DNA of 64,000 bases, taken from positions 1 through 64,000 of the forward strand of contig NZ_CP146241.1 of assembly GCF_037039395.1 (NCBI RefSeq), in the 5' to 3' direction. A program made the position numbers and the translations under genes. The notes under the pieces are model-generated. The model was given only the letters and a program-made list of their open reading frames with translations, ran no database searches and was not told where the DNA came from. Below are positions 1,721-46,656 of the stretch, in pieces (positions within the stretch are counted from its first letter, which is position 1; each line of letters opens with the position of its first letter). Source of the DNA: Agrobacterium vitis. Its GTDB lineage: Bacteria > Pseudomonadota > Alphaproteobacteria > Rhizobiales > Rhizobiaceae.

Positions 1721-1782
1721 GATAGCGTCTCCGAAACGGCCGTTCTGTGGACGGTGGCAGTCATCCTCATTCCGACACTGAA

Positions 1783-1853: not shown

Positions 1854-1863
1854 AGGGGTAGAG

Positions 1864-26350: not shown

Positions 26351-27061
26351 TCAGTTGGTATCGCTGACCTCGAAGGTGCCGTCGCCGTTAAAGTGAACGG
26401 TGATTACCTTGCTGCCGGAGGTGAAATCGCAGCGCGCCGCGTACACCGTATCGTAATGGACAGGCTGACCGACCTCGGCGGCGCCTGGTCGAACGTAGAA
26501 CACTGGAACTGGCGATATTTCGAGCTCTATATTAGGTGGCGGCGCGATAAAGGACGACAGCACAATGACGCCATTCTGATCGAGCATCGCGTTGCCGCAG
26601 AGGAGATCGTCGACGTGTTCGGCGGCGAAAGGCGGAACTTGAAGACCAAACGCGCCTGTGCGTAACCCGGTTCGGTGCGTTGCAGCCGAAAGCCCCAAGG
26701 GATCCACAGTTAGGATCACGTGATTAGCTGGCTCGTCCTGCTCACGGGCGGATGCGAGGCTAACTGGCTGTAATGCGTTAACACGACTGATGATTTCGCC
26801 ACCGGAAACAGAAGGGGTACCAAGCCTGTAGCCACCCATCGACCGGGCGTGTCGCGTCGCACCAACCCTGATGCTGCGATCCAGCGCGATGATAAGCTGC
26901 GCACCTGACTTTTCTTGCGTCGCAAGCAAGCCGGTCGCCAGACAATTGCTCCAGACCCTTGGTTCTGCCAAGCCGACGAAGCTCGCTTGTTCCTGAAAAA
27001 CGAAGAAGGTCATATCTGTGGCTGACCCATTTTCGATAACAATCGTTGAATAGGTGGGCAT
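26351..27061 (-). CDS. Hypothetical protein, paralogue of the neighbouring 27139-27798 product
   Basis: A 236-residue protein of no family I can name. It clearly shares ancestry with the next upstream gene: both start M-x-T-x-x-TI-x-IEN, followed by M-x-F-x-VFQE-x-A and a GLL motif near residue 45. Both have PLGL in the middle, a FYV segment and a C-terminal CDFT-x-G motif. No signal peptide or membrane segment is seen, so it is probably cytosolic or exported by a dedicated route. Beta-strand-rich composition suggests a sandwich fold. The pair is transcribed together with a hairpin between them, downstream of a Cro/CI-type regulator. Confidence 0.75.
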   Translation of the reverse strand: MPTYSTIVIENGSATDMTFFVFQEQASFVGLAEPRVWSNCLATGLLATQEKSGAQLIIALDRSIRVGATRHARSMGGYRLGTPSVSGGEIISRVNALQPVSLASAREQDEPANHVILTVDPLGLSAATHRTGLRTGAFGLQVPPFAAEHVDDLLCGNAMLDQNGVIVLSSFIAPPPNIELEISPVPVFYVRPGAAEVGQPVHYDTVYAARCDFTSGSKVITVHFNGDGTFEVSDTN

Positions 27062-27091
27062 GTCGACAACTCCAACTCACATTGGGGAGAT

Positions 27092-27122
27092 CAGGCCGCT
27101 CCGCGCACCACGCAGCGGCCTG
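27092..27122. repeat. Inverted repeat between the paralogous genes
   Basis: CAGGCCGCT at 27092-27100 pairs with AGCGGCCTG at 27114-27122, a nine-base GC-rich stem. It lies between the stop of the upstream paralogue (27139) and the start of the downstream one (27061). No T-run follows on the minus strand, so partial termination or differential mRNA stability is the likely effect. Confidence 0.65.
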
Positions 27123-27138
27123 GAACGCAGAATTCGGC

Positions 27139-27798
27139 TTATGCTACGGCCCAATCCCCATTGTTGCTGAGTGTGACATTCAGTTCCGGCTTTCCGCCTG
27201 TGAAATCGCAAAGCGCTGCCGTCTGACTAGCCTGTGAGAAGTTCATGACGGTTCCAGGGGTATATGAGCCAGTTGCGACATAGAATTTCAGGATTGGTTG
27301 GCAATCGACATGGTTATTCGGTTTCGCGATAACAAAATTGGACATCACGACACCCTGATCGACAACCTCTATCGCCGAACCGACGTTATAGATCGCTGGA
27401 GGCGAGAAAGACGGTGTGTTGATGCGGTATGCTCCGCCTTGCACACCGGGTTCATTGACGGGAGTAGTCAGGCCCAGCGGGGTGTATGTGGCGATCACAG
27501 AATCATTCGTGACTTTGCCGTCGGTCGCGATATCGATCGCTTGGATGGCGGACGCATATCCGGACGAATGTCCAATTTGCGGCGTGGTGTGCGCTTGTTG
27601 GATGCCAGCGTAGAACTGCATATTGATCTGGAATGTCAGGCTTCCGCCCGTCGTCGTACGGTTTCCAAGAAGTCCCGACCAGAGCGAATTGGTGTAAACC
27701 TGCGGCCCTCCCACATAGATGGCTGGCTCCTGGAAAACGTAAAACATCATTGCATCTGACTCTTGGTTTTCGATATTGATTGTGAGCAATGTAGACAT
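27139..27798 (-). CDS. Hypothetical protein, first of a paralogous pair
   Basis: A 219-residue unknown protein homologous along its length to the product of 26351-27061. Shared landmarks are the IEN near residue 10, FYVFQEPAIYVGGPQVY near residue 19, the GLL near 43, PLGL near 106, FYV near 175 and CDFTGG near 202. Its richness in Gly, Thr, Asn and Gln and lack of a signal peptide resemble small beta-sandwich proteins. GC content is visibly lower than that of most neighbours, suggesting transfer. The ATG at 27798 follows AAAGAGGTGCC. It lies 156 bases after the regulator gene on the same strand. Confidence 0.75.
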   Translation of the reverse strand: MSTLLTINIENQESDAMMFYVFQEPAIYVGGPQVYTNSLWSGLLGNRTTTGGSLTFQINMQFYAGIQQAHTTPQIGHSSGYASAIQAIDIATDGKVTNDSVIATYTPLGLTTPVNEPGVQGGAYRINTPSFSPPAIYNVGSAIEVVDQGVVMSNFVIAKPNNHVDCQPILKFYVATGSYTPGTVMNFSQASQTAALCDFTGGKPELNVTLSNNGDWAVA

Positions 27799-30739: not shown

Positions 30740-31154
30740 CTAGCCTTTTTTATCACTCCCATCAGCCTCATTTGAAATTAGCTCAAGCTGCCGGTTGAAA
30801 TCAGCCGGATCGAAATAGTCCCGCCAGACAGTGATGAAACCGGCTTCGATTGTTACTGTGCCCATGACCGGTAGTGTAATCGTGCCGCCGCCTATGTGCG
30901 TGAAGATATCGACCCGCTCGTTGAGCACAACGTTTCCAAAAGCGGCGATATTGGTGACCTTCCAGTCGACTGTGAAAGGTTCCAACGCCAAAATCCCGGT
31001 GGAACTTGCGAACGTTTTCCCGGCCGACAATATCTGGAAACGGTACGTTGTCGTAGAGCACGTTGTCCGCCAGCATTGCGAGCGCATCGTCGATGCGATT
31101 GGCGGTCCAATGATTGAAGAATGTGGTTGCTATATCGACTGGGTCTAAGGACAT
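30740..31154 (-). pseudogene. Limonene-1,2-epoxide hydrolase-like (NTF2 fold) protein, frameshifted
   Basis: Two overlapping minus-strand frames join to about 137 residues. The N-terminal part reads LDPVDIATTFFNHWTANRIDDALAMLADNV and YDNVPFPDIVGRENVRKF. The C-terminal part reads FTVDWKVTNIAAFGNVVLNERVD and FITVWRDYFDPADF, with the WRDYFD motif of the limonene-epoxide hydrolase family. The frame change lies near 30990. Relatives hydrolyse epoxides or have unknown roles. It heads a run of three minus-strand redox genes. Confidence 0.75.
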
Positions 31155-32678: not shown

Positions 32679-33608
32679 ATGGAAACTCTTGCAAACCTGG
32701 AATCCTTCGTCCGAAGCGCCGAACTCGCAAGCTTCTCGGCGGCCGCACGCCGGCTCGGCCTGACTCCCGCAGCCGTGAGCCGCAATGTTGCCGCGCTGGA
32801 GGCGAGCCCTGAAACTTCGCCTGTTTCACCGCAGCACGCGCAGCCTGAACCTCACAGAGGCCGGCGAACGGTTCCTGCTGTCCATCAGGGATCATCTGGA
32901 AAATCTTCAGGGCGCCATCGCAGATATCTCTCAATCTGACGGGGAGCCCGCAGGCGCTCTAAAGATCAGCATGGGACCGACATTCGGGATCGGATATATT
33001 CTGCCCATGCTGCCCGAGTTCATGCGACAATACCCGCTGATCCGCCCCGAATGGATGTTCGAGAACCGGCAGGTCGACCTGATCGCAGAAGGATATGACG
33101 CGGCAATCGGCGGTGGTTTTGAGCTCGCGCAAGGAATCGTCGCTCGGACGCTTGCTCCCGCCCATCTCATTGCCGTGGCTTCGCCCGATTATCTGCGGGG
33201 CCGTCCCCTCCCCGCTTCGCCCGCAGACCTTTCAGCCCTGGATGGCATCGCGATGCGATCCCTGCGCACCGGCCGGATCCCCCAAAGGCTGATGAGAAAT
33301 GCGTCCGGAGAGGAACAGGCCGTCTTGCTCAAAGAGACCATCGTCGTGAATGATCCGGCAGCAATGCGGGCCGCGTCGCTGTTGGGACTGGGCGTTACGT
33401 TGATCGTCAAAGCGGATGCCCTTCCCCATCTCGAAAGCGGGGAACTCGTGCGGCTGTTGCCGTCATGGTGGTCGATGCGGGGCCGATATCGATCTACTAC
33501 GCGAGCAGAAATCTCATCCCTTTGAAGACGAGGGTTTTCGTCGATTACGTGGTCGAGGTGTTCCAGCGTGAGCGCTATCCGGAACGGTTTGCAGGAAGCC
33601 TGGGATAG
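32679..33608 (+). pseudogene. LysR-family regulator, two frameshifts
   Basis: Three frames rebuild one full-length LysR protein. They are the helix-turn-helix part (LANLESFVRSAELASFSAAARRLGLTP region), the linker and effector domain (KLRLFHRSTRSLNLTEAGERFL onward), and the C-terminus (ISIYYASRNLIPLKTRVFV). The first switch is an extra C in AGCCCTG near 32805 and the second a missing G in TGGTGG near 33470. Two independent indels mean that it is non-functional unless they are sequencing errors. It is divergent from the SDR gene at 31811-32569, the usual position of a LysR activator for that gene. Confidence 0.85.
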
Positions 33609-33924: not shown

Positions 33925-34710
33925 TCAGACGAGCTGGGATAGCCAGCCAAGACCATCGACGGTCGATTGGCGCGGACTATATTCGCAACCTAGGAACCCA
34001 TTGTATCCCCCCTTCACTAACCCGTCCCGAACTGTTCCGAAGTCGATCGTACCGGTTCCGGGCTCGTGGCGACCGGGATGATCCGCGATGTGAACGTGGC
34101 CGATCAGCTCGGCGTTCTTCTCGATCTCCACAAGCGGATCGAGACCGCTGTTCACGCAATGAAAGACGTCCAGCAGCAAGCGGATATTGTCGCGTCCGGT
34201 CGCCTCAATCGCTTTCACACCAATGTCCGGCAAGTCGACGAAATAGTCCGCAACGGCACCGGCGCTCATTGCCTCAACGAGGATGGTGATGTCGCGTTCG
34301 GCTGCGCGGTCGGCTGCCCAACTCAGGTTGTCGATGTAGCAATCCCAGTGCTCGGCCGTGCGTAAGGACTTGGGCAGGACGCCGGCCATCGCATGAACCT
34401 TCTTGACGCCGATGGTCTGCGCATAGTCGAGGCCGACCCCGACGCTGTCGCGAAACTCGCTGCGGCGGTCGGGAAAGATCGCAAGCCCCTTCTCGCCCCG
34501 CGTGGCCTCGCCGGAATAAAGCCCGAACTGGACATAGGGAAGGTCGATCTCTTCCAGCCATTCGGCCATGCGGGCTGCGGGGACATGGTAGGGAGACGGG
34601 TGTTCCACCGCCGAGAAGCCGTGCCGTTTCGCGGCCCGGAAACGATCGAAATACGTGAGGTCGGTAAAGAGATAGCCCAGATGAGCGCTGTAACCGAAGA
34701 CGTGCGGCAT
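33925..34710 (-). CDS. otnI: Hydroxypyruvate isomerase family protein, probable 2-oxo-tetronate isomerase
   Basis: A 261-residue TIM-barrel isomerase of the xylose-isomerase-like/Hyi family. Metal-site segments are visible: ILVEAMS, LLLDVFHC, HVHIADHPGRHEPGTG and GCEYSP. In Hyi the third segment is usually HIQIAD; here the metal-ligand glutamine appears as histidine (HVHIAD), which may be a subfamily trait. Hyi-type enzymes next to a DUF1537 kinase and class II aldolase convert 2-oxo-tetronate to 3-oxo-tetronate, and both partners lie in the same cluster. It is the last gene of the minus-strand run, 47 bases after tctA. Confidence 0.82.
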   Translation of the reverse strand: MPHVFGYSAHLGYLFTDLTYFDRFRAAKRHGFSAVEHPSPYHVPAARMAEWLEEIDLPYVQFGLYSGEATRGEKGLAIFPDRRSEFRDSVGVGLDYAQTIGVKKVHAMAGVLPKSLRTAEHWDCYIDNLSWAADRAAERDITILVEAMSAGAVADYFVDLPDIGVKAIEATGRDNIRLLLDVFHCVNSGLDPLVEIEKNAELIGHVHIADHPGRHEPGTGTIDFGTVRDGLVKGGYNGFLGCEYSPRQSTVDGLGWLSQLV

Positions 34711-34757
34711 CCTATTTCCTATCGATTAAATAAGGTCGTAAAGTTGGCCTTCGTAGC

Positions 34758-36263
34758 TTAGCCTTCTTCCTGGAAGGCAATTTCACGCTTCCTACGCAGG
34801 GCTGGCGCGATCATGAGTGCGAGGAGAGCAACGGCAAGCAACAACATCGTGGCGCTGATTGGCCTAGTCACAAAAACCGTGGGATCTCCCCTCGAAAGCA
34901 TCATTGCACGGCGCAAGAACTCCTCCATCATCGGCCCGAGGATGAGCGCAAGAAGCAGCGGCGCCGGTTCGGCGCCGATCTTCTTGAAAATGTATCCAAG
35001 CAAGCCGAAGCCAGCCATCAGGTACACATCGAAGCTGGCATTGTTGACCGTGAAGACACCGATCGTGCTGAACAGGATGATGGCGGGAAACAGGTAACGA
35101 TACGGGATGGAAATCATCTTCACCCACAGCCCCACCAGGGGCAGATTGAGGACGATAAGCATCAGGTTACCGCACCACATCGACGCGATCAGACCCCAGA
35201 ATAGCTTCGGCTGCTCAACCATCACACTGGGTCCGGGCTGAATTCCCTGGATCATAAGCGCCCCGATCATCAGAGCCATGACCGGGTTCGACGGAATTCC
35301 GAGAGTCAACATCGGGATGAACGAGGTCTGCGCGCCAGCATTGTTGGCCGCCTCAGGCGCTGCGACACCCTCGATCGCGCCATGCCCGAACTGAGCCGAG
35401 TGCTTCGAAATCTTCTTCTCGAGAGCATAGGCACCGAATGACGACAGAACAGCACCGCCGCCGGGGAGAATTCCAAGGACGGAACCAAGGGCCGTCCCAC
35501 GGAGGGTCGGGCCGATGATCCGCCCCCAGTCCTCCCTCGTCGGGAAAAGACCTGTGACTTTCGTCGCCAGTGTGGAGCGACTGGTCTCGTCTTCCAGGTT
35601 AGCGATGATTTCCCCGATACCGAATAGGCCCATGGCGATGGTGACAAAGCCAATCCCATCGGCAAGCTGCGGGACATCAAATGTGAAGCGAGCTATGCCG
35701 GAATTGATGTCGGTCCCGAACATGCCGAGAACTAGACCCACCAGGATCATGCCGATGGCATTCAACAGCGAACCACTTGCCAGAACGACCGAAGCAATCA
35801 GACCGAGGACCATGAGCGAGAAATATTCGGCCGGGCCGAAAGCGAGGGCAGCACCAGCAAGCAGAGGGGCTGCAATGGCGATAATCAGGGTGGCGATTGT
35901 CCCGGCAATGAATGACGAAATCGCAGCGGTCGCTAACGCACGCCCGGCCTTCCCCTGCCTTGCCATCTGGTATCCGTCAATCGCCGTCACCACCGAAGAG
36001 GATTCCCCCGGAAGGTTGACCAGGATCGCCGTCGTCGAGCCGCCATACTGAGCGCCGTAGAAAATACCGGCCAGCATGATGAGAGCGGAATCGGAGCCGA
36101 GGCCATAGGTCAGCGGCAGGAGCATGGCGATGGTGGGTACGGGACCCAGTCCTGGCAACACGCCGATCGCGGTGCCCAGAAGCACGCCGATGAGGCAGTA
36201 GAAGAGGTTCATCGGATCCAGCGCAACGTGGAGACCGAGAGTGAGATTGGCGATAACGTCCAT
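34758..36263 (-). CDS. tctA: Tripartite tricarboxylate transporter, large permease TctA
   Basis: Large inner-membrane subunit of a TTT-family importer. About 501 residues with ten to twelve hydrophobic segments and the hallmark GVLPGLGPVPTIAMLLPLTY, followed by GIFYGAQYGGSTTAILVNLPGE and the second-half mirror GILPGGGAVLSSFGAY. The ATG at 36263 lies 13 bases after tctB; the frame continues upstream into tctB without a better start. TTT systems take up carboxylates using a proton or sodium gradient. In this cluster the cargo is probably the acid sugar degraded by the neighbouring enzymes. Confidence 0.94.
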   Translation of the reverse strand: MDVIANLTLGLHVALDPMNLFYCLIGVLLGTAIGVLPGLGPVPTIAMLLPLTYGLGSDSALIMLAGIFYGAQYGGSTTAILVNLPGESSSVVTAIDGYQMARQGKAGRALATAAISSFIAGTIATLIIAIAAPLLAGAALAFGPAEYFSLMVLGLIASVVLASGSLLNAIGMILVGLVLGMFGTDINSGIARFTFDVPQLADGIGFVTIAMGLFGIGEIIANLEDETSRSTLATKVTGLFPTREDWGRIIGPTLRGTALGSVLGILPGGGAVLSSFGAYALEKKISKHSAQFGHGAIEGVAAPEAANNAGAQTSFIPMLTLGIPSNPVMALMIGALMIQGIQPGPSVMVEQPKLFWGLIASMWCGNLMLIVLNLPLVGLWVKMISIPYRYLFPAIILFSTIGVFTVNNASFDVYLMAGFGLLGYIFKKIGAEPAPLLLALILGPMMEEFLRRAMMLSRGDPTVFVTRPISATMLLLAVALLALMIAPALRRKREIAFQEEG

Positions 36264-36276
36264 GGGGAGCTGATCC

Positions 36277-36744
36277 TCAGAAATTCGGCAGGAGCGGCTG
36301 AAGCCAGGTGCCAATCAAGGGTATCGGAACATTGAGCAGTTCGATGAACACCACCGAGCAGACACAGACAAGGGTAAGCGCGCCAAGAACAGGCCGTGAC
36401 GCCAGCTTGAATTCGCGGCTGCCCATCGCTGCCGTCATCACGGTCAGCAACATCGCCAGAGGTCCGCCAAGCGGTTCGACCGCCAATCCGAAAATGGCGA
36501 CGGAGCCGATAATCGCCGCAACCGGCCGCATCGCTATTTTGCCGACGGCATCGCCTTCCACCACGAACGACTTGACGACCGAGGCAAGCCCGACCAGCGC
36601 CAGAAGACCGGTCAGCAGAACCGGAAAAAAGCCGGGGCCCATGCGCGTCGCAGTTCCGAAATTGTAGTTTTTCGCGATGAACAGTCCGACGAGTCCCACG
36701 ACCAGAAAGATCGAACCCGTCCAGAAATCCTTAGGCGCCTTCAT
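36277..36744 (-). CDS. tctB: Tripartite tricarboxylate transporter, small subunit TctB
   Basis: Small membrane subunit of the TTT importer, 155 residues with four hydrophobic segments (for example FWTGSIFLVVGLVGLFIA and the RMGPGFFPVLLTGLLALVG pair). The RMGPGFFP motif is typical of TctB. The ATG at 36744 follows GGGAG at a normal distance. Located between tctC and tctA as in most TTT operons. Confidence 0.9.
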   Translation of the reverse strand: MKAPKDFWTGSIFLVVGLVGLFIAKNYNFGTATRMGPGFFPVLLTGLLALVGLASVVKSFVVEGDAVGKIAMRPVAAIIGSVAIFGLAVEPLGGPLAMLLTVMTAAMGSREFKLASRPVLGALTLVCVCSVVFIELLNVPIPLIGTWLQPLLPNF

Positions 36745-36833
36745 CAAGGCTTACTCCCGGCAGTGTGTTGGCGGCAAACGGATGCGCTGGTGACCGGCCT
36801 TGTCGAAGGCCCGGTCGGAGGCATGGACTATCC

Positions 36834-37811
36834 TTACTGATCTTTCCAGGGATTTTTGGCCCACATATCTTTCAGGCGGGCGTCGATGCCCAGCACGGAC
36901 TGCTTGTACTCGTCTCCGTACAGACCGCGAATTGGAGCCTTGAATTTTGTGGCTGCAGCCTTGAACTCCGGGTCATCCAAGGCGGCTCTGAAGGCGGCAG
37001 AGAGTTTGGTCAGCAGATCGGCTGGGAGACCGGGGGGCGCCACAATCCCACGCTGAGCGCCGACCGTGAAGGCATAGCCACCCTCGCGGAACGTCTGTAC
37101 GTCTGGCATGGACGGACTACGGTTGTCGCCGGATTGGGCAAGAACGCGGACCGTCCCATCGGCGAGCGGCTGGATGAATTCGCTCACGTTCAGAACCGCG
37201 ACATCGATATGACCGCCCTGAAGCGCCGTGCTGACCGGTGCAGACCCATTAAACGGGATCACATTGAACTTCACACCGGCAGCCTGCTGAAGCTCAAGCA
37301 CCACCAAATGATCGTCGCCGCCAACCCCCGTGTGCCCGATCGAGATAGATTCCGGAGCTGCTTTCGCGCGTGCGATAAGGTCCGCGAGGTCCTTGATGTC
37401 GGAGGTTGGAGACACCGCGATCGCGCCTGGGTCGTCCATCACGTTGGCGATATAGACAAACTCATCGATCTTGTAGCGAACCGGGCGATCGAACGGGATT
37501 GTCATCATGGCCGGTGACGTTACGCCGCAAAGCGTGTAGCCGTCCGGTTTGGCGGTAAAGACGTATTCCATACCGATCTGACTGCCGGCACCCGCACGGT
37601 TCTCGATCACGATATTGGAACCGGGAAGATGCTTCTGGACATAAGGCACGACAAGGCGTGCCATCTGGTCCACGCCGCCGCCTGGCGGAAACGGTACGAC
37701 AAACATAATGGGTTGGGCGGTGGGCCACTCAGCAGCAAAAGCCGGCTTGCTTACAATAGTCGATACCGCGGCAGCTGCGCCGACGGCCATAAAATGTCTA
37801 CGATTGATCAT
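36834..37811 (-). CDS. tctC: Tripartite tricarboxylate transporter, periplasmic binding protein TctC
   Basis: Periplasmic receptor of the TTT system, 325 residues from the ATG at 37811 (after GGAGGAGGGACCA). The N-terminus carries two arginines, MINRRHF, and a hydrophobic stretch ending AFAAEWP, a possible Tat or Sec signal. The mature part has the family motifs VPFPPGGGVDQMARL and NIVIENRAGAGSQIG. Ligands of this large family range from citrate to aromatic and sugar acids and cannot be read from sequence. A 220-base gap upstream contains a copy of the motif shared with the lysR-oxidase intergenic region. Confidence 0.93.
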   Translation of the reverse strand: MINRRHFMAVGAAAAVSTIVSKPAFAAEWPTAQPIMFVVPFPPGGGVDQMARLVVPYVQKHLPGSNIVIENRAGAGSQIGMEYVFTAKPDGYTLCGVTSPAMMTIPFDRPVRYKIDEFVYIANVMDDPGAIAVSPTSDIKDLADLIARAKAAPESISIGHTGVGGDDHLVVLELQQAAGVKFNVIPFNGSAPVSTALQGGHIDVAVLNVSEFIQPLADGTVRVLAQSGDNRSPSMPDVQTFREGGYAFTVGAQRGIVAPPGLPADLLTKLSAAFRAALDDPEFKAAATKFKAPIRGLYGDEYKQSVLGIDARLKDMWAKNPWKDQ

Positions 37812-38007
37812 TGGTCCCTCCTCCTTGAATCCGGCTCTATAATGTGTGTGTCTTATGTCGCCGAGACGCCAAAAACCGTTGAAGTAAGATCCTACGGCAA
37901 GTCGATTAGCGTCTCGCCTTCTCCCAAGGCGCAACATTCAATCAAGCTGTATTGACTAGTTCGCATGAATCAAAAGCTAAATAAACTTGTGATGCCTAGC
38001 TTCATTC

Positions 38008-38020
38008 GTAAGAAAATATT
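38008..38020. promoter_or_regulatory. Candidate LysR-regulon motif upstream of tctCBA
   Basis: GTAAGAAAATATT lies in the gap between fbp and tctC. It matches 12 of 13 bases of the complement of 44848-44860 in the lysR-oxidase intergenic region. The match of an AT-rich 13-mer in GC-rich DNA at two regulatory gaps of one cluster suggests a common binding site. Confidence 0.5.
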
Positions 38021-38031
38021 GCGTTTGCTGT

Positions 38032-38997
38032 TTATGAATCGAGAACATAACGCGCGCGGATGTTATCCACCTCGTTGCGGGAGCCAAGGATGACTGCAAC
38101 GCGCTGGTGAAGCTCGGTGGGCGTCAGATCGAGGATGGGATGTTTGCCGGTCGTGGCCGCTCCCCCCGCCGTCGTTATCAACAGCGCCATGGGGTTTGCT
38201 TCGTACAACAGGCGCAAACGGCCTCCCGTCTTCGCGGCTTTTTTTCCAGCCGGATAGAGAAAGACACCGCCTCGTATCAGTATCCTCAGAATATCGGCCA
38301 CCATTGAGCCCACCCATCGGCTGTTGTATACCTTGTCGCTGTGCTTTGTCGGTCTAAAGCAGGCTGCAACATAGCCAGAGATGGCTTTGTCCCACTGCAT
38401 TTCTCTGCTGGAATTGATCGCAATTTCCGTCGTATCGACCGGAACTGTCAATCCGCTCCTGGCAAGCTGCCAGACGCCATCTCCGCCTAGTACGAAAAGG
38501 TCGACACTTGTACCGAACGTCAGCACCAGACTGGTAGCGGGTCCGTATGCGGCAAAACCCGCGAACACCTGCGTGTTCCCCGGAGACAGAAGAGCGTCTC
38601 CGAATGCTGCGGGGATGACGGAAAAGATCGAGCCAACCGTTACATTGACATCGAGATTGGACGACCCGTCAAGCGGGTCGAATATGACGGCAAACCTGCC
38701 ATCCGCATGGATCGGTGTCTCCAGGTCAAGCTCTTCGGACACTGCATAGGATGCGCCGGCGCACCGGTGACATGCCGCCATGAAGATGTCGTTCGCCAAG
38801 ATATCGAGCGGCTTCTGAACCTCGCCCTGAACATTGACGCTTTCGGTCGCCCCGGTCAGCCCGTCAAGCGGCGCGGTACGCAACTGGCTTGCGAGCTCGG
38901 CGCTGGCGCTGGCAATTTCCGCGACGATTGTGGCGAGATCCGGAGGCAGTCCCGCTGCGACATGCTGTGTGATCCATTCGCCGAGTGTCCTGATCAC
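38032..38997 (-). CDS. fbp: Class I fructose-1,6-bisphosphatase
   Basis: Cytosolic phosphatase converting fructose 1,6-bisphosphate to fructose 6-phosphate. The 321-residue product has the metal- and phosphate-binding FDPLDGSSNLDVNVTVGSIF region and the C-terminal GGVFLYPAGKKAAKTGGRLRL and YEANPMAL segment of class I enzymes. It overlaps the preceding aldolase gene by four bases (ATGA), so the two are translationally coupled. Inside an acid-sugar cluster this pair would direct triose phosphates into gluconeogenesis. A Calvin-cycle paralogue (cbbF type) is the alternative origin, but no other cbb genes are present. Confidence 0.94.
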   Translation of the reverse strand: MIRTLGEWITQHVAAGLPPDLATIVAEIASASAELASQLRTAPLDGLTGATESVNVQGEVQKPLDILANDIFMAACHRCAGASYAVSEELDLETPIHADGRFAVIFDPLDGSSNLDVNVTVGSIFSVIPAAFGDALLSPGNTQVFAGFAAYGPATSLVLTFGTSVDLFVLGGDGVWQLARSGLTVPVDTTEIAINSSREMQWDKAISGYVAACFRPTKHSDKVYNSRWVGSMVADILRILIRGGVFLYPAGKKAAKTGGRLRLLYEANPMALLITTAGGAATTGKHPILDLTPTELHQRVAVILGSRNEVDNIRARYVLDS

Positions 38998-40046
38998 GAG
39001 CCAAATCCGTTCGAATAGCGGCGCGCCATCTCGTCGAGAGGAATTGTCTTGATCTTCTTGGCATTTCCAGCCGTACCAAATCTCTCAAACCGCTCGACGC
39101 ACAACTCTTCGATCTTGGTTGTCCCGGGTTTGAAAATGGCACGCAGATCGAAGGATGCAGGGTTCGCCTGAAGGTATTCTCGCATCGAACCACTCATTGC
39201 CATGCGAAGGTCGGTGTCGATATTGATCTTGCGCACGCCCATCTTGATGCTGCGGACTACCTCGTCAAGCGGCACGCCAAAGGTGGGTGGCATCTCACCG
39301 CCACTCGTATTAATGAGCTCTTGCAGGTCCTGTGACACTGTCGACGCGCCGTGCATGACCAGATGCGTGTGCGGCAGCAGTGCGTGAATGGCCGCGATCG
39401 TATCGATCGAAAGCGTTTCGCCGGTCGGCTTCTGCGAAAACTTGTAGGCCCCGTGGGAGGTACCGATTGCGACAGCCAGAGCATCGACGCCGGTCGCGGA
39501 TACGAAATCGGCGGCCTGTTTCGGATCTGTCAGCAATTCTTCGCGGGCAAGCGATCCCTCGAAGCCGTGGCCATCCTCCTGTTCGCCCGCGCCGGTTTCG
39601 AGCGATCCGAGTACGCCGATCTCGCCCTCGACCGACACACCGCGGGCATGTGCCAGAACGACGGTTTCGGCGGTGACACGCACATTGTAGTCGTAACTTG
39701 CCGGCGTCTTGCCGTTTGCCTCCAGCGATCCGTCCATCATGACGCTTGAACAGCCGTTTTCGATCGCAGACTGACATACGGACGGGCTGCTGCCGTGGTC
39801 CTGATGTACGCAGAGCGGCACGGAAGGAAAACGCTCGGCCGCTGCGAGAAACATGTGGCGCAGGAAAACATCGTCGGCGTATTTTCGAGCACTCTGACTG
39901 ACTTGTACGATGGCCGGACTGTCGGTGCGCTCAGCGGCACACATGACGCCGAGCAGGGTTTCGAGATTGGTGATGTTGAAGGCTGGCACGCCATAGTCAT
40001 GTTCGGCGGCATGATCGAGGATCTGCCGTAGCGATGTAAGGGCCAT
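38994..40046 (-). CDS. fba: Class II fructose-bisphosphate aldolase
   Basis: Zinc-dependent aldolase of 350 residues interconverting fructose 1,6-bisphosphate with DHAP and glyceraldehyde 3-phosphate. The zinc motif VHQDHG near residue 80, the second zinc-site segment VSVEGEIGVLG, and LVMHGAS and GVRKINIDTDLR are all present. Length and sequence match the Calvin-cycle subtype (CbbA-like). It lies 64 bases after the decarboxylase gene whose predicted product is DHAP, so local consumption of DHAP is plausible. Coupled to fbp by overlap. Confidence 0.94.
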   Translation of the reverse strand: MALTSLRQILDHAAEHDYGVPAFNITNLETLLGVMCAAERTDSPAIVQVSQSARKYADDVFLRHMFLAAAERFPSVPLCVHQDHGSSPSVCQSAIENGCSSVMMDGSLEANGKTPASYDYNVRVTAETVVLAHARGVSVEGEIGVLGSLETGAGEQEDGHGFEGSLAREELLTDPKQAADFVSATGVDALAVAIGTSHGAYKFSQKPTGETLSIDTIAAIHALLPHTHLVMHGASTVSQDLQELINTSGGEMPPTFGVPLDEVVRSIKMGVRKINIDTDLRMAMSGSMREYLQANPASFDLRAIFKPGTTKIEELCVERFERFGTAGNAKKIKTIPLDEMARRYSNGFGS

Positions 40047-40110
40047 GTGGTCTCCGTGAGGATTTGCTTTTGCACGGCGCCGGGGTGGACGGGAAATAGG
40101 CCGCGTGACG

Positions 40111-40749
40111 TCAGCTCGGGAACGTCGCGTTGAGATCCGCGATGGCGTCAGCAGTCAGCGGAGACGTCTTGCGGTCTCCGACGATGAAGAAGATCTTGGC
40201 CGTCTCCTCAAGTTCCTCATAAGCATAGATGGCCTCTTCCAATGTCTTCGCCGACACGATCGGCCCGTGGTTGGCAAGCAACATGGCACGATGATCGCGC
40301 GCGGCCTCCCGCACAGCATCGGCCAATGCGCGGTCGCCGGGCCGGAAGTATCGCAGCAACGGCATCTTACCCAAACGCATGATCTGATAGGCGGTCAGCG
40401 GCGGCAGAACATCGGATGAATCCTCGTGGCAGAGACAGGAGAGTGCTGTCGAATATGTCGAGTGTAGATGAACGATAGCGCCGGCTGCCGGACGCTCCTC
40501 ATAAACGGCAAGATGAAAGAACGCCTCCTTGGACGGAAGATCGCCCTCCAGAAGCGCCCCATCCGGCGACAGTTTCGATATGCGACCCGCTTCGAGGAAT
40601 CCGAGGCTGGAATTGGTCGGGGTGACGAGAATATTGCCATCGTCGAGCCGCACCGACAGATTGCCGGCGCTGCCATGGGCAAGCTGGCGTTGATAGAGCA
40701 GTGCGCCGAAACGCACCAGCTTTTCGCGATATTCCGCTTCCGTCTGCAT
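40111..40749 (-). CDS. otnC: Class II aldolase/adducin family, probable 3-oxo-tetronate 4-phosphate decarboxylase
   Basis: Zinc enzyme of 212 residues. Zinc-binding histidines are visible in HLHSTYS and a further histidine in NHGPIV. The N-terminus HGSAGNLSVRLDDGNILVTPT is the substrate-phosphate region of the class II aldolase fold. In tetronate pathways this family decarboxylates 3-oxo-tetronate 4-phosphate to DHAP. The start at 40749 lies just after the restored stop of the kinase gene (40758) and is preceded by GAAGGGC. The longer upstream frame belongs to the kinase C-terminus region and is not used. Confidence 0.88.
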   Translation of the reverse strand: MQTEAEYREKLVRFGALLYQRQLAHGSAGNLSVRLDDGNILVTPTNSSLGFLEAGRISKLSPDGALLEGDLPSKEAFFHLAVYEERPAAGAIVHLHSTYSTALSCLCHEDSSDVLPPLTAYQIMRLGKMPLLRYFRPGDRALADAVREAARDHRAMLLANHGPIVSAKTLEEAIYAYEELEETAKIFFIVGDRKTSPLTADAIADLNATFPS

Positions 40750-40757
40750 AGCGCCCT

Positions 40758-42022
40758 TCAGTTCTTCAGCGCATCGAGCGCATCGGCAAAAAACGTCGGG
40801 CCACCAAAATTTCCCGACTTCAACGCCAGCGCGATACCCCGCCTCTCGCTGACCAAAATCGGCACGCCCGGGTCGATTTCCGGTCCGATCCGCAAGGCAC
40901 CGAGATCGAGGGCTTGCGCCACCGCGCCCGATGTTTCCCCCCGGCAACCACCAACCGGCGAACGCCGCGATCGATCAACGTCTTTGCCGTTTCGGCAAAA
41001 AAGGCATCGAGCTTTTCGGCAATCGCTTCGCGTCCGTAGGTAGCCTGCGCCTTCGCGACATCCTCCGGAGTAGCGGAAGAGTAGGCGAGCGGCGCACGCC
41101 CCCGGTTGCGCTCGATGAAGTCCAACACATCACCGATACTGGTGCGTCCGCCCATTATGTCATCGACGCTGATGGCAAGCACCGGATGATCAAGAGCGTG
41201 TCTGTCGATCTGGCCGCGCGTCGCGCCTGAGCAACTGCCGGCCAGGATCGCCTCGGGGCCGTCAATTCTCGTAAAGCGATCACTATACCCCTTGGCAAGG
41301 CCAGCCTTGATGAAATTGGCAGGTAGGCCGAGCGCTATGCCGGAGCCACCGGTAATGAGCTTCGCATCGGCGCAAGCAGCACCAAGCACCACGAGATCCT
41401 CATCGGTCGCCGCATCGGCGATGACCAGTGTCTCGCCCCGCTCCGCACAGGCGGACAAAGCGGCTGCAACGCCCTCTACACCCTTTCTGACGACGCCTGC
41501 CGGTACGAGGCCGACGGGTGTCGCTGTCTGCCGTGCCAACCAACGGCGGATATCGGGATCGGTCATCGGCGTCAGCGGATGGTTCTGCATGCCGGATTCG
41601 CTCAAGAGCCTGTCGTGAACGAAGAGATGTCCCTGATGGACCGTGCGTCCGACGGTTGGAAAGGCCGGGCACACCACGACGGCTTTGACGCCGAGAGCAT
41701 TTGCCAATGCTTCGCCGACGGGACCGATATTGCCTTCCGGGGTCGAATCGAATGTCGAGCAATATTTAAAGACAATCTGTTTACAGCCCTGGGCCAGTAG
41801 CCATTCCATTGCTGCAAGTGACTGCGCCACCGCGTCAGCCACCGGGACGGAACGGCTCTTGAGGGAAATGACGCCCGCTTCGATATCCGCGGGGACGGGA
41901 TGTTCGGGGATGCCCATGAACTGCGAGACCTTCAGTCCACCTTGACCGGGGAGCCCCCTGGCCAAGGTGTTGGCGATGTCGCCGGCACCTGTAAAGTCGT
42001 CCGCGATAACTCCGAGAAGCAT
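40758..42022 (-). pseudogene. otnK: DUF1537 four-carbon acid-sugar kinase (probable 3-oxo-tetronate kinase), frameshifted in a G run
   Basis: The first about 360 residues are a normal DUF1537 kinase: LLGVIADDFTGAGDIAN at the start, FKYCSTFDSTPEGNIGPV and LITGGSGIALGLP. After GVRRLVVAGG the frame changes: the expected GGETSG nucleotide-binding motif and the C-terminus ending FFADALDALKN are found one frame away. The switch is at a run of six Gs near 40938-40943; a seventh G would restore a protein of about 421 residues stopping at 40758, eight bases before otnC. Because everything else is intact, this may be a phase-variable run, a recent mutation or a sequencing error. Confidence 0.85.
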
Positions 42023-42027
42023 GTCGA

Positions 42028-42696
42028 TTATTCTCCGGAAACGAGGGTGCGCATGCGCAGGACAGCGGCATCCGGTGCCGAAAAGACCGGGACGTCAACG
42101 ACGGCCCGAACGGCCTTCATGGCACGGGAGGTCGAAAAATGCGCCAGCATGATCGCATCATATCCCGCAAATCTCGGTGCCTGGTCGGCCACCAGCCGGT
42201 TGTGGGTGTGGGCATCGCCCTTGCGCAACAGGTCGATCGCGTCAGCGACGACGATCGTCTCCAGCGTCGCGGCCGTCTCACCTTCGCTCACGAACTGCTC
42301 GAACTCTTCGGTCATGGTGGAAACGGCGGGGGCAAATGTCGCAAGCATGCCGATGCGGTTGCCGGCGGCAATTGCCTCGCGAAACATCGCTTCATTCGGC
42401 TTCAGCACGGGCACCGGCAACTCCGCCGCCATTCTGTCAATCGCCGGGCCGAAAGCAGAACACGTGATGAGGATTCCGTCGGCACCCATCCGGTGCGCAT
42501 AACGCCCGAAATCCACGAAACGATCGCTCAACTGCTCGGAGAGTTCCGGCCCTTCCTTGGCACGGTCGATCGACAGGCCGTCATCCAACAGATTGACCAT
42601 CTCAGCCTCGGGCCACAGATGCGTCATGGATGTCTTGATCGGCTCCATCGCAACGGGCGTTGCATGAAGAAGAACAATACGCGGGGATTTTTTCAC
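42028..42696 (-). CDS. Asp/Glu racemase family protein
   Basis: A 222-residue protein of the Asp/Glu/hydantoin racemase superfamily, whose members are racemases, isomerases or decarboxylases. The first catalytic-loop cysteine is present at about residue 79 (ILITCSAFGPA). The position expected for the second cysteine reads MLAHFSTS, with histidine instead. With one thiol, a simple two-base cysteine racemase mechanism is unlikely. It is five bases upstream of the kinase gene, so it is co-expressed. It may act on an epimer or side product of the acid sugar. Confidence 0.8.
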   Translation of the reverse strand: MKKSPRIVLLHATPVAMEPIKTSMTHLWPEAEMVNLLDDGLSIDRAKEGPELSEQLSDRFVDFGRYAHRMGADGILITCSAFGPAIDRMAAELPVPVLKPNEAMFREAIAAGNRIGMLATFAPAVSTMTEEFEQFVSEGETAATLETIVVADAIDLLRKGDAHTHNRLVADQAPRFAGYDAIMLAHFSTSRAMKAVRAVVDVPVFSAPDAAVLRMRTLVSGE

Positions 42697-42710
42697 GACG
42701 ACAACTCCAG

Positions 42711-43418
42711 TTAGACGGTGGCGGGGGCAAACCGAGCCACCAGTCCGCCATTTGAATAGGCCTCATGCGCCTCGGATGAGGTCAGGTGCGCCAGGAAGAC
42801 TTGTGCGAGTTCCGGGTTCTGGGCATCTGCAAAGATGGCGGCCGAGAAATCCGTGGTGACCTGAAGCTCTGCCGGAAATGGCCCAATGACGGCCACGCCT
42901 TCGACCGACATCAATTCGCTGACCTGCTGGACAGCGATATCGGCCTCGCCGCTGATAACCTTTTCCCCGGTAAAGCCTGCCGGGATGATGATCGACTTGG
43001 CGTTTATCTCGTCGGCAATACCCAACTTTTCAGCGACCTTTGCGAAATAGATGCCGCTCGCACCCGCCCTGGAATAGACAATCGAGCGTGCATCCAGCAA
43101 AGCCGCTTTGAACTTTTCAGGCGTGGAGATGTCCGGCAGTGCAGTGCCCGCGCGGGCACCAAGCCCAAAACCGGCCGTCGCGATCGGCGTGACGCTCTGA
43201 GTCTGGACAATTCCCGCCGAGGCAAGCTTCGCCATCGGTCCGTCGATCAGTACCACCACGTCGGCCCGCCTACCCGCCTCGATATTCTCCATCAGCACGG
43301 TGGTCGGGCTCCACTCAACCTTGATCTGGCGGCCGCTTTCGCGCCAGGCCGGTAGTAGCCAGGTCTTGAACGCCATTTCGACGGCGAGCGTGCTCATAAG
43401 TTTCAGGGTCTCGCCCAT
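42711..43418 (-). CDS. ModA-like substrate-binding domain protein without signal peptide
   Basis: A 235-residue protein of the type II periplasmic-binding fold related to molybdate-binding ModA: LKLMSTLAVEMAFKTWLLPAW at the start, ADVVVLIDGPMAKL, SIVYSRAGASGIYF and EADIAVQQVSELM. The ATG at 43418 has GGAAGGA upstream and the N-terminus has no signal peptide, so the protein should be cytosolic. There is no ModB or ModC nearby. It lies between the oxidase and the racemase in the same operon. A sugar-acid sensing, chaperone or enzymatic role are all open. Confidence 0.75.
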   Translation of the reverse strand: MGETLKLMSTLAVEMAFKTWLLPAWRESGRQIKVEWSPTTVLMENIEAGRRADVVVLIDGPMAKLASAGIVQTQSVTPIATAGFGLGARAGTALPDISTPEKFKAALLDARSIVYSRAGASGIYFAKVAEKLGIADEINAKSIIIPAGFTGEKVISGEADIAVQQVSELMSVEGVAVIGPFPAELQVTTDFSAAIFADAQNPELAQVFLAHLTSSEAHEAYSNGGLVARFAPATV

Positions 43419-43447
43419 GGCAGTTCCTTCCGCTGTCGAACGGGTTT

Positions 43448-44683
43448 TCAGTTGAGAAGATCGGGGGTTATTTCGGACCTGTTCCGCACACCGATCAGCG
43501 CCATGTCCCTGTTGATTTCCTCTGTCAGAAGCTGGACGGCATGTTCGACCGCCGCCGCCCCGCCGATACTCGCCGCATAAAGAAGCGGGCGACCGACAAA
43601 GACGAAATCAGCGCCAAGCGCCAGGGCTTTCAGGACGTCCGTACCGCGACGGATCCCGCCGTCAATCATGATCGTCATATCTGGAACGGCTGCCACGATC
43701 TTCGGAAGCATGGTGATGGGCGCCACAGCATAGTCGAGCTGGCGCCCGCCATGGTTGGATATGATGACGCCATCCGCACCGGCGTCCCTTGCCTTCACGG
43801 CATCCGCAACGCTGAGGATACCCTTGACCACCAGCTTGCCCTTCCAGATCCGCCGGATCGCCTCGACATGGCTCCAGGCAAGCTGATCGCGACCATTGAT
43901 GTTGCGCACGGCATTTTGCGAGAACATCGGCGGACCACGGGTGGCATCCATGTTCTCGAAATGTGGGATGCCGAATTTAAGCACCGTGCGCGCGATCGTG
44001 CCAAGAAACCAGGCCGGATGCAGGGCGCTGTCGAGCATGGTTTTTGGCGTGATCTTCATCGGCATTGAGAAGCCGTTACGGGCATTGTTTTCCCGGTTTG
44101 ATGGTACAGGATGATCGGCTGTCACGACCAGCGTTCCGAAGCCTGCCGCCTCGACACGCTTAACCATCGGTTCGATACGCGCCAGATCACCGGCCAGGTA
44201 GGCCTGGAACCAGGCATCCGGGTTCTGGCGATGGACCTCTTCAAGTGGGATGAGCGACGAGGCGCTGAGGATCATCGGCACGCGGCTGTTCTTCGCCGCC
44301 TCTGCCAGCGCAAGGTCTCCCCTGTAGGCGACCATTGCGGCACCACCGAACGGACAAATGCCAAAGGGTGCACTGTATTGCGCGCCGAACAGGTCCGTCG
44401 CTGTCGTGCGCTTCGAGACGTCCATCATCGTGCGGGGCACGAGAGCGATATCATCGTATCCGCTGCGCGATTGCCGAAGGGCCGACCCCGTTTCCGACGC
44501 ACCCGAGACAAAACCATAGACCATGCGCGGCAAATGGCGGCGCGCCGCTTGTTCGAAATCGTCAAGCGCGAGCAGGTTGCGAAAACGCCGCGGCACGACT
44601 TTGGCGGCGGGAGACACAGGAGCCGTTGGCCGCGGAGCCACGGGTGAAGCCGGTTGAATTTCGCTGTGGGTATTGATGTTCAT
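43448..44683 (-). CDS. FMN-dependent alpha-hydroxyacid oxidase/dehydrogenase (LldD/glycolate-oxidase family)
   Basis: A 411-residue TIM-barrel flavoenzyme oxidising 2-hydroxy acids to 2-oxo acids. Visible features are YGFVSGASETG, FGICPFGGAAMVAYRGDLALA, the catalytic-histidine motif ISNHGGRQLD and the FMN phosphate site IDGGIRRGTDVLKALALGADFVFVG. The ATG at 44683 follows GAGAGGCGACA. It is first in the minus-strand run, divergent from a LysR gene. In described tetronate pathways an NAD-dependent dehydrogenase makes the 2-oxo acid; none is present here, so this enzyme is the obvious replacement. Electrons could go to quinone or oxygen. Confidence 0.9.
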   Translation of the reverse strand: MNINTHSEIQPASPVAPRPTAPVSPAAKVVPRRFRNLLALDDFEQAARRHLPRMVYGFVSGASETGSALRQSRSGYDDIALVPRTMMDVSKRTTATDLFGAQYSAPFGICPFGGAAMVAYRGDLALAEAAKNSRVPMILSASSLIPLEEVHRQNPDAWFQAYLAGDLARIEPMVKRVEAAGFGTLVVTADHPVPSNRENNARNGFSMPMKITPKTMLDSALHPAWFLGTIARTVLKFGIPHFENMDATRGPPMFSQNAVRNINGRDQLAWSHVEAIRRIWKGKLVVKGILSVADAVKARDAGADGVIISNHGGRQLDYAVAPITMLPKIVAAVPDMTIMIDGGIRRGTDVLKALALGADFVFVGRPLLYAASIGGAAAVEHAVQLLTEEINRDMALIGVRNRSEITPDLLN

Positions 44684-44814
44684 TGTCGCCTCTCGAACGC
44701 TTTTGGTGCGTGACTGAAGAGGCGGACGACTGAAACCCGCCATGCATGCCGAAACCAGCGCTGCGGCAAACCCGTGTCCTCCTCACAGAAGCCTGTTATA
44801 GCGGCTGATGGACC

Positions 44815-44860
44815 TAAGAAAATCTACCTCCACCTTACTTCAAATCCAACATTTTCTTAC
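44815..44860. promoter_or_regulatory. Candidate LysR binding region of the acid-sugar cluster
   Basis: In the divergent gap, TAAGAAAATCT at 44815-44825 and, inverted, AACATTTTCTTAC at 44848-44860 form an imperfect inverted pair of TAAGAAAAT. The second matches the motif upstream of tctC at 12 of 13 positions. The location between a LysR gene and its likely target fits an activator site. Function is inferred. Confidence 0.5.
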
Positions 44861-44920
44861 TTTTGTGTTTGACATCAGGGCTGCGCCGGCTGTTCCTGAG
44901 AGAAACAAGGAGGAATTCCA

Positions 44921-45805
44921 TTGGACACCCATTTTCTCGAAAGTTTCGTCGCCGTCGCTGAGCTTGGCTCGATAGCAGAGGCCGCACGCAGGCTCGACCT
45001 CACGGCATCCGCCGTGTCGCAACGCATCGGGGCCCTCGAGGCAGAGATGAATATCGAGCTGGTTTCACGTTCGGGCCGAACCGTTCTTCCGACACCGGCC
45101 GGCACGGCTTTGTTGCCGGAAGCCAAAAAGGTGCTTCAGGCAATCAGCAATTTGAGATTGCTGGCTGCGGAGGGTACCATCTGGGGGGACTTCAAGATCG
45201 GCGTCTTCACCTCCGCACTGACAGGCTTTTTCCCGCCGATCCTCGAGAAGTTGATCGAGGATCTTCCCAATGTGGATTTTTTCCTGGTTCGGGCAGCGTC
45301 GGACGACCTTTATCCTCAGTTGCTTCGCAGTGAGCTGGATGCCGCCATCGTCATCAAGCCGAACTTTGCTTTGCCCAAGTCCGTCGACTGGATAGGCCTT
45401 CGCAAGGAGGCCCTCATCGCGATCACCCCCGAACATGTGTCTGAACGGGATATCGGAAAACTTCTGAGCGATCACAAGTTCATTCGGTACGACCGCAATA
45501 ACTGGGGCGGACGCATCGCCAACCGTTTCCTTGAGGATCGCGGGCTGAAGCCAATGGAGCGACTCGAGCTCGATTCTCTCGAAGCCATCGCTGTGTTGGT
45601 TGATCGTGGTTTGGGTATTTCCATCATTCCGGATTGGGCGCCCCCGTGGCCGGAAGGGCTCCGCCTTAACAAGATCGTACTGGACACGAAGGACTATGCT
45701 CGCGACATCGGCATCGTTTGGCCACGGGCGTCTCCCAAAATGGCGATCATCGAAACATTCGTCAAACACGCGCGGGCGATCTGTGAACTGAAACAGTGCG
45801 CCTAA
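44921..45805 (+). CDS. LysR-family regulator of the acid-sugar cluster
   Basis: Full-length LysR protein of 294 residues: FLESFVAVAELGSIAEAARRL, then ASAVSQRIGALEAEM for the helix-turn-helix, and a complete effector domain from FKIGVFTSALTGFFPPIL. Translation probably starts at the TTG at 44921, seven bases after AAGGAGG; no ATG is available nearby. It is divergent from the hydroxyacid oxidase gene, the standard layout for a LysR activator and target, with candidate sites between. It is immediately followed by an IS6 element. Confidence 0.92.
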   Translation: MDTHFLESFVAVAELGSIAEAARRLDLTASAVSQRIGALEAEMNIELVSRSGRTVLPTPAGTALLPEAKKVLQAISNLRLLAAEGTIWGDFKIGVFTSALTGFFPPILEKLIEDLPNVDFFLVRAASDDLYPQLLRSELDAAIVIKPNFALPKSVDWIGLRKEALIAITPEHVSERDIGKLLSDHKFIRYDRNNWGGRIANRFLEDRGLKPMERLELDSLEAIAVLVDRGLGISIIPDWAPPWPEGLRLNKIVLDTKDYARDIGIVWPRASPKMAIIETFVKHARAICELKQCA

Positions 45806-45847: not shown

Positions 45848-46656
45848 GGAGCCTGTCGCAAATTTCTGTGTTTAACGGTATCTTGACCGTGGCACGAGAA
45901 ATTCCCGCTCCAGATGTTATGGAGCGTTTCGATGATTCTGAATGCGTTTACCGAAAAGATGAAGCGGCAGTCGAACGACGATTTCAAGGGCCGGCATTTC
46001 GAGGCATGGCTGATCCGTACAAGCGGTCACCTGGTATTTGAGATATCCGGTGAGTTATCGAGATCTGGAAGAAATGTTCGAAGAGCGCGGCTTCGAGGTC
46101 GATCATAGCACGATCAATCGCTGGGTATTGAGCTATGCGCCGATGATCGAGAAGCGTCTTCGCCAGTTTCGCCGGCCGCATTGCGGATCGGTTCGGATTG
46201 ACGAGACCTACGTTAAGATCCGCGGCAAATGGCGCTATCTCTACCGAGCCATCGATAAGCATGGCAACCCGGGGGATTTCATGTTGACCGCCAAGCGAGA
46301 TCTCGAAGCCGCCAAGCGGTTCTTCCGCAAGATGCGGAAAGATCAGCCCTTGTTGTCGCCGAATAAGATCGGCACAGATGGTGCCAATACCTTCCCGTCG
46401 GCGATCAAAACGTCGATTGAAGACGGGCTTCTACAGCCCGACCCCGTTCACTATGTGACCAAGCACTTGCAACAAGGCATTGAGAGCGACCATTTCCGTG
46501 TGAAGAAGAACATGCCAAAGATCGGCGACTTCCAATCCTTCAACACCGCGAGGCGAACGATTGCCGGTTTCGAGGCATGCTGTGGTTGAGGAAAGGCTTC
46601 GGCTTTTCCGGCGGCTGGACAGTGCCGCGGCTTCTGTGGAAGTTTGCGACAAGCCC
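45848..46656 (+). mobile_element. IS6-family insertion sequence
   Basis: Imperfect terminal inverted repeats are seen: GGAGCCTGTCGCAAATTTC at 45848-45866 and, on the other strand at the right end near 46656-46639, GGGCTTGTCGCAAACTTC. About 810 bp long with an IS6-type transposase on the plus strand. No 8-bp target duplication is found, which for this family suggests recombination or deletion at one end. The transposase has two frameshifts. Confidence 0.8.
45932..46650 (+). pseudogene. IS6-family transposase, two frameshifts
   Basis: The rebuilt protein reads DFKGRHFEAWLI, then in a second frame VTWYLRYPVSYRDLEEMFEERG and the DDE core (VRIDETYVKIRGKWRYLYRA, GTDGANTFPS) up to FNTARRTIAGFEA, and in a third frame LWLRKGFGFSGGWTV. 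The first indel is an extra C near 46017 and the second a missing base near 46576. The copy is therefore probably inactive. Confidence 0.88.

Follow-up and report, generated by a model that had tools for sequence, protein, structure and literature searches.

How can a gene cluster for the breakdown of four-carbon sugar acids work without the NAD-dependent dehydrogenase that usually opens such a pathway? This question is raised by positions 33,925 to 45,805 of a 64,000-nucleotide stretch of the Agrobacterium vitis genome (contig NZ_CP146241.1; the whole stretch is called the window here). Eleven genes run there on the minus strand, from 44743 to 33925. They encode, in this order, a flavin mononucleotide (FMN)-dependent enzyme, a ModA-like protein, a member of the Asp/Glu-racemase superfamily (AGrac), a DUF1537 kinase (OtnK), a class II aldolase-type decarboxylase (OtnC), Fba, Fbp, TctC, TctB, TctA and an OtnI/Hyi-type isomerase; a LysR gene is divergent from the run. 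Pfam and NCBIfam profiles found every gene that a preliminary description of this DNA had named in 33925-45805, on the strand and in the order claimed. Besides FMN_dh (PF01070), the Pfam domains in the cluster are Asp_Glu_race (PF01177), SBP_bac_11, F_bP_aldolase, the N- and C-terminal FBPase domains, Aldolase_II, TctA, TctB, TctC, AP_endonuc_2, SBD_N, NBD_C and the LysR domains.

Excerpts of PMC12540250 and PMC10580937 summarise the LtnD/DenD-OtnI-OtnK-OtnC tetronate pathway of Zhang et al. (2016). Our cluster resembles it in matching the models of the 3-oxo-tetronate kinase (in part) and the decarboxylase, in having an OtnI-type isomerase and in the expected product, dihydroxyacetone phosphate (DHAP). 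It differs in having a FMN dehydrogenase for LtnD/DenD and in adding AGrac, the ModA-like protein, Fba and Fbp. With moderate confidence, we propose that the cluster encodes a modified DUF1537 tetronate-to-DHAP pathway in which a FMN dehydrogenase is the entry, probably for (2S)-tetronates. What gene content and neighbourhoods support is that this flavoenzyme entry recurs as a gene arrangement; they do not speak to its chemistry.

In the proposed route, the tripartite tricarboxylate transporter would bring in a four-carbon aldonate, likely D-threonate or L-erythronate. The FMN dehydrogenase may then oxidise C2 and pass the electrons to the respiratory chain. The OtnI-type isomerase, a weak model assignment, could yield the 3-oxo acid, which by model assignment OtnK would phosphorylate and OtnC would decarboxylate to DHAP. 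Fba, whose enzyme type like that of Fbp is given by its profile matches, could join DHAP to glyceraldehyde 3-phosphate, and Fbp could release fructose 6-phosphate if carbon flows this way. AGrac and the ModA-like protein may together handle an intermediate.

A flavoenzyme in the place of the NAD-dependent dehydrogenase

Two curated models speak for the tetronate assignment, the kinase model in part. OtnK (40820..42022, minus strand) scores 446 bits against a cut-off of 350, but its match stops at position 362 of a model of 418 (positions 1-362), and OtnC (40111..40749, minus strand; start codon read from the sequence) scores 304 against 250 with NF043034, the decarboxylase model of the DUF1537 tetronate pathway. 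The isomerase gene lies at 33925..34710 on the minus strand (PF01261, 132 bits), and the best PDB match of its product is YgbM (1k77). In E. coli K-12, the ygbJKLMN genes include neighbours for a kinase, a decarboxylase and an isomerase from these families; E. coli, however, has LtnD (YgbJ), and no FMN enzyme, AGrac, ModA-like protein, Fba or Fbp adjoins.

The preliminary description placed a flavoenzyme where a NAD-dependent tetronate dehydrogenase is usual, and this held up. The cluster contains no such dehydrogenase, and no LtnD or DenD in the A. vitis genome exceeds its cut-off (the best LtnD score is 183 bits against 350, the best DenD score 65 against 325). For comparison, species-representative genomes were scanned for AGrac. 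At least 553 pattern stretches were confirmed, among which one gene may count repeatedly, and the counts below refer to the best 80 of these, which are not a random draw. Presence of genes was scored by tblastn with thresholds of our choosing, since the gene caller had fused or missed genes (L101, L110, L119 and L121); absences carry little weight in 13 of the 80, which span less than 15 kb. Most loci belong to Alphaproteobacteria, with others from Pantoea, Erwinia, Serratia and Paraburkholderia. None of the 80 has an LtnD homologue at 38% identity or above, and weaker matches (26-29%) occur in L093 and L100. LtnD is present in 23 of 60 contrast loci chosen by OtnK, and AGrac with the FMN enzyme in one of them; these loci, one per genus and from the same order, were hand-picked from the highest-scoring matches listed, which end near 530 bits, so that they under-sample the AGrac clade, and a few lie on short contigs (e.g. 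L174 and L197). The search for DenD covered the A. vitis genome and one SDR of a sister cluster, which gave no DenD match; it did not extend to the AGrac loci.

OtnK was found in 38 of the 80 AGrac loci, OtnC in 31 and OtnI, at 45% identity or more, in 33. The FMN enzyme is also present in 38 (a 35% paralogue in L049 was not counted), and 15 loci, from Alpha- and Gammaproteobacteria, have it together with OtnK. DUF1537 genes that lack LtnD and lie near an LldD-family gene, the neighbourhood proposed earlier as a check, do recur, in 15 of the 38 OtnK-bearing loci. Six loci have the full set of FMN enzyme, ModA-like protein, AGrac, OtnK, OtnC and OtnI. Because homologous genes adjoin one another in other genera, the arrangement is judged to be more than chance. 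The closest counterparts are in Ancylobacter aquaticus and A. vacuolatus (L044 and L045), where LysR, FMN enzyme, ModA-like protein, AGrac, TctC, TctB, TctA and OtnI follow in the same order at 63-87% identity; the OtnK-OtnC-Fba-Fbp block, in contrast, is absent from the cluster there and OtnK is elsewhere in the genome.

Most of the kinases linked to AGrac also group together. In a tree of 102 OtnK rows (99 different), 38 of the 41 AGrac-linked rows, including the window's, form one clade of 39 with L227 (support 100/99); L069, L082 and L092 fall outside. L227 came from the order sample, and AGrac and the FMN enzyme adjoin its OtnK. Three pairs of rows represent the same genome twice (L032, L033 and L034 equal L059, L064 and L058), here as in the residue counts and the 40-relative kinase comparison below. 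The survey points to a sizeable branch of sugar-acid catabolism, given the 553 or more AGrac-encoding stretches, the separate kinase clade and the conservation of both AGrac and the ModA-like protein. Neither a FMN enzyme nor a racemase-like protein is mentioned for tetronate breakdown in the titles and abstract openings of the literature surveyed, which left out most subscription journals.

Five loci (L109, L116, L068, L069 and L055) carry AGrac and OtnK with a DRL/SAF-domain oxidoreductase upstream, and no FMN enzyme or ModA-like gene was found in them.

Acceptor and substrate of the FMN enzyme

The FMN enzyme (43448..44743, minus strand; start codon uncertain) matches FMN_dh with 413 bits and shares 37% identity with E. 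coli LldD (371 columns). It misses the curated L-lactate dehydrogenase models (NF033901, 242 vs 550; NF008398, 270 vs 376), and among solved structures it comes closest to (S)-mandelate dehydrogenase 6bfg (240 bits), ahead of 1huv, a 380-residue mandelate dehydrogenase entry (208 bits). If 1huv is, as we assume, the chimeric mandelate dehydrogenase, this difference fits a retained membrane segment. The enzyme thus appears to lie inside the LldD/MdlB group and, by model, not to be a lactate dehydrogenase. Residues Y182, D210, K307 and H331 are present in 40 of 40 rows, and R217 and R334 in 39, the window included in each case; we take these six to be the catalytic set of glycolate oxidase. The place of glycolate oxidase Tyr24 is Phe in three of the 40 rows, namely the window and both Ancylobacter homologues. 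We considered this change as a sign of decay and rejected the idea, since L044 and L045 carry the same Phe.

With (S)-mandelate and L-lactate dehydrogenases as its nearest relatives, the enzyme is probably a quinone-linked, respiratory dehydrogenase of an (S)-2-hydroxy acid rather than an O2-dependent oxidase, and the label 'oxidase' given to it earlier is better dropped. FMN enzymes of the LldD/MdlB family act on (S)-2-hydroxy acids. L-threonate and D-erythronate have the 2R configuration, and D-threonate and L-erythronate are 2S. Therefore D-threonate or L-erythronate is the likely substrate, and not L-threonate or D-erythronate, the acids named in the preliminary description. If correct, our proposal carries a stereochemical prediction, the use of 2S tetronates, and links threonate-type acids to the respiratory chain through a flavoenzyme. 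Such acids are products of plant ascorbate breakdown, according to an excerpt of PMC12540250.

Genes for a lactonase, SDR and MFS proteins occur in sister clusters. On plasmid pPAT9B04 of Pantoea sp. At-9b (L261), the FMN enzyme, ModA-like, AGrac and OtnK genes adjoin those for a lactonase, an MFS protein, cytochrome c, a GMC oxidoreductase and a small subunit, a set that suggests that sugars are oxidised in the periplasm and the products passed to the cluster. Both observations fit an incoming aldonic acid.

Alternative explanations

Several observations weigh against a flavoenzyme-led tetronate route. The isomerase falls below both NCBIfam cut-offs (243 vs 353 for hydroxypyruvate isomerase, 235 vs 325 for 2-oxo-tetronate isomerase). 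Among the 38 OtnK-bearing AGrac loci, 23 lack the FMN enzyme; eight of these have a zinc-dependent alcohol dehydrogenase, five a DRL/SAF oxidoreductase and ten none of the three. AGrac and the ModA-like protein are found also without local tetronate genes, and the contrast loci are thin in the very clade concerned. Fba occurs in only seven of the 80 loci, Fbp in five and both in four; among the FMN-bearing loci, Fba is confined to L071 and Fbp is absent. None of the 80 therefore repeats the window's trio of FMN enzyme, Fba and Fbp. To these are added the state of the kinase gene and a related FMN enzyme in another setting, which bear on the two stronger alternatives.

As sequenced, the kinase is out of frame, a break that was overlooked when the DUF1537 gene was correctly called. 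The match to the kinases of 40 relatives runs in one frame as far as about 40934. In a second frame it starts at about 40940 or further upstream and reaches about 40764 or slightly past it, taking in the conserved C-terminus. The switch falls within a G-rich run at the expected place of the conserved GGET motif. Since this is the only DUF1537 (PF07005) gene of the genome, with intact copies present in relatives, the tetronate route in this strain may be dead, or the break may be an assembly error or recoding. That the whole cluster is decaying here and no longer provides a functional tetronate pathway we regard as possible rather than probable. Insertion-sequence (IS) transposases and split or truncated genes lie nearby, as expected of a remnant. 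Against this, the second-frame stretch is still 48-83% identical to the relatives, so that the break is recent if it is not an assembly error or recoding, and in each of the other genes of the cluster an open frame covers the family model. Twelve genes in the 6-24 kb part of the window (14.2 kb) show ten gaps against plasmid pAtS4e of Allorhizobium ampelinum, and the nine that are not multiples of three form four groups, within each of which the shifts cancel out. That part thus shows no general decay and no general assembly error.

Alternatively, the FMN enzyme could have a different substrate among the 2-hydroxy acids (glycolate, L-lactate, L-glycerate or a longer aldonate), with the common operon as its only tie to the tetronate genes. 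The family is broad, and in A. ampelinum S4 a 52%-identical FMN enzyme adjoins TctCBA with no OtnK, AGrac or other tetronate gene within 6 kb, so that the FMN-TctCBA pairing by itself is no sign of tetronate. Moreover, 23 of the 38 loci with FMN enzyme and AGrac have no local OtnK. However, 19 of these 23 keep an OtnI-type isomerase (45% identity or more), a kind of enzyme whose substrate is a 2-oxo acid, and all 16 of the genomes that were checked have an over-cut-off OtnK elsewhere. Together with the recurrence of the FMN enzyme beside OtnK in two proteobacterial classes, this makes an unrelated substrate unlikely. In 11 of the 16 genomes an LtnD homologue lies within about 2 kb of an over-cut-off kinase, which suggests that the FMN enzyme and LtnD serve different isomers where one genome keeps both.

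A third alternative, that the Fba-like gene encodes the 2-oxo-tetronate 4-phosphate decarboxylase (2-OtnC) of the three-step bypass described in PMC12540250, where an excerpt gives 2-OtnC a F_bP_aldolase domain, would account for Fba homologues directly behind OtnC in six of the 80 loci and at the cluster's other side in L071; it is distinctly improbable given the score of Fba over the curated cut-off for class II fructose-bisphosphate aldolase type B (TIGR01521, 544 vs 496), the overlapping class I fructose-1,6-bisphosphatase gene behind it and the Aldolase_II-type OtnC already in the cluster.

The Fba-Fbp exit

Fba (CbbA type; 38994..40046, minus strand) and Fbp (38032..38997, minus strand) overlap by four bases on the same strand. 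Fbp has both class I bisphosphatase Pfam domains (PF00316, 129 bits; PF18913, 136 bits) and slightly misses its best NCBIfam model (338 vs 349). No other PF01116 or PF18913 gene occurs in this genome, and GlpX was not found in it. Nor was GlpX found in any of 13 genus genomes (G000 and G397-G408, one of them 66% complete), of which three, including our own, have a class I Fbp over cut-off. The cluster may therefore supply a bisphosphatase absent from most congeners, within a search that covered GlpX and class I Fbp and not other bisphosphatase types or pyrophosphate-dependent phosphofructokinase.

The loci of Pelagibacterium lacus (L059), Falsochrobactrum shanghaiense (L056) and Brucella pseudogrignonensis (L053) show a similar exit, with ModA-like protein, AGrac, OtnK, OtnC and Fba in a row and Fbp near. 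They differ in having no FMN enzyme and in carrying Gnd (all three), Zwf (L059 and L053), Pgi (L059) and a zinc-dependent alcohol dehydrogenase (L056 and L053), and their Fbp is only 37-40% identical to ours. In P. lacus, OtnI, Pgi, Fbp, Zwf, Gnd, an IclR regulator, ModA-like protein, AGrac, OtnK, OtnC and Fba lie within about 14 kb (L032, on the same contig as L059). The gluconeogenic exit suggested in the preliminary description is thus plausible by gene content, given the overlapping genes, their uniqueness in a genome without GlpX, their place beside related kinases in four loci and the Zwf, Gnd or Pgi genes in some. The exit is real in gene content and rare among AGrac loci. The module can hardly be called 'self-contained', as had been claimed, with its kinase out of frame and a class I aldolase gene on another contig of the genome, the match to which spans one TGA that is possibly its end.

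AGrac and the ModA-like protein

The preliminary description listed both proteins but passed over them as the more conserved part of the cluster. The ModA-like protein is present in 67 of the 80 AGrac loci and accompanies the FMN enzyme in 36 of its 38, so the conserved core is AGrac, the ModA-like protein and often the FMN enzyme, with Fba and Fbp optional. AGrac (42028..42696, minus strand) belongs to the Asp/Glu-racemase superfamily (PF01177). Its C79 is invariant (85 of 85 rows), and a near-invariant His (82 of 85) occupies position 186, which we take from the racemase motif to be the second-Cys place. A standard two-Cys Asp/Glu or hydantoin racemase was rejected, as the second Cys is absent. 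The ModA-like protein (42711..43418, minus strand) has a solute-binding fold and is probably cytosolic, with no leader peptide visible by eye. It scores below the curated ModA cut-off (26 vs 62.5), and no ModBC is encoded among the cluster genes; for these reasons a molybdate binder was also rejected.

No assigned role for either protein was found in the literature surveyed, and fold searches show fold and not function. Most likely, AGrac is an epimerase or isomerase of an oxo-tetronate that would move the proton next to the carboxylate. A fuller scheme, which we offer tentatively and consider rather unlikely, would make AGrac a cofactor-independent 3-oxo-tetronate C2 epimerase (a Cys/His variant of the racemase fold) and the ModA-like protein a cytosolic carrier. 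One kinase/decarboxylase pair could then take all tetronate stereoisomers, with FMN, zinc-dependent alcohol dehydrogenase and DRL-type oxidoreductases as interchangeable entries, the FMN entry opening the 2S tetronates D-threonate and L-erythronate.

Four Reyranella loci (L096, L098, L102 and L105) combine the ModA-like and AGrac genes with a MaoC-like gene and lack a tetronate kinase; the two proteins may therefore act in other pathways.

Transport, regulation and genomic setting

All three components of the importer proposed earlier are present. TctC, the solute receptor (36834..37811; PF03401, 156 bits; start read from the sequence), has a leader that is twin-arginine-like by eye; TctB is the small membrane subunit (36277..36747; PF07331, 51 bits) and TctA the permease (34758..36263; PF01970, 516 bits; start read from the sequence), all on the minus strand. 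The LysR-type regulator (44921..45805, plus strand; PF03466 and PF00126) has a TTG start behind AAGGAGG, and a 74%-identical homologue occupies the corresponding place in the two Ancylobacter loci. The region between it and the catabolic run (44744..44920) is assigned as a divergent promoter region by position only.

The cluster may be an accessory segment. Window positions 5000-29000, with genes for NrdE, a sugar ABC transporter and a Fic-domain protein among others, match Agrobacterium vitis and Allorhizobium ampelinum plasmids at about 92% identity over 76%, which places the host probably close to Allorhizobium. For the cluster segment, a near-search of plasmids gave 13 records, all at 60-80% with a coverage of at most 5%, and none at 80% or above. 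Repeats across 24000-47500 amount to just two 23-base pairs (83%).

Genes for IS240-type DDE transposases lie to the right of the cluster at 46038-46589 and 60047-60746, the second apparently in two frames. Several genes appear truncated or divided, namely one for a small protein, read in two frames that overlap (30740-31154), a LysR without its helix-turn-helix (32785-33525) and a NADH:flavin oxidoreductase as two open reading frames (61127-62231). Positions 22804-23910 and 26351-27798 hold the Fic-domain protein and two neighbouring proteins (219 and 236 residues) without a Pfam match that resemble each other by eye. A Tn3-family transposase and a resolvase are encoded at 1151-4827, adjoined by a FolD-like gene (226-1110, by eye).

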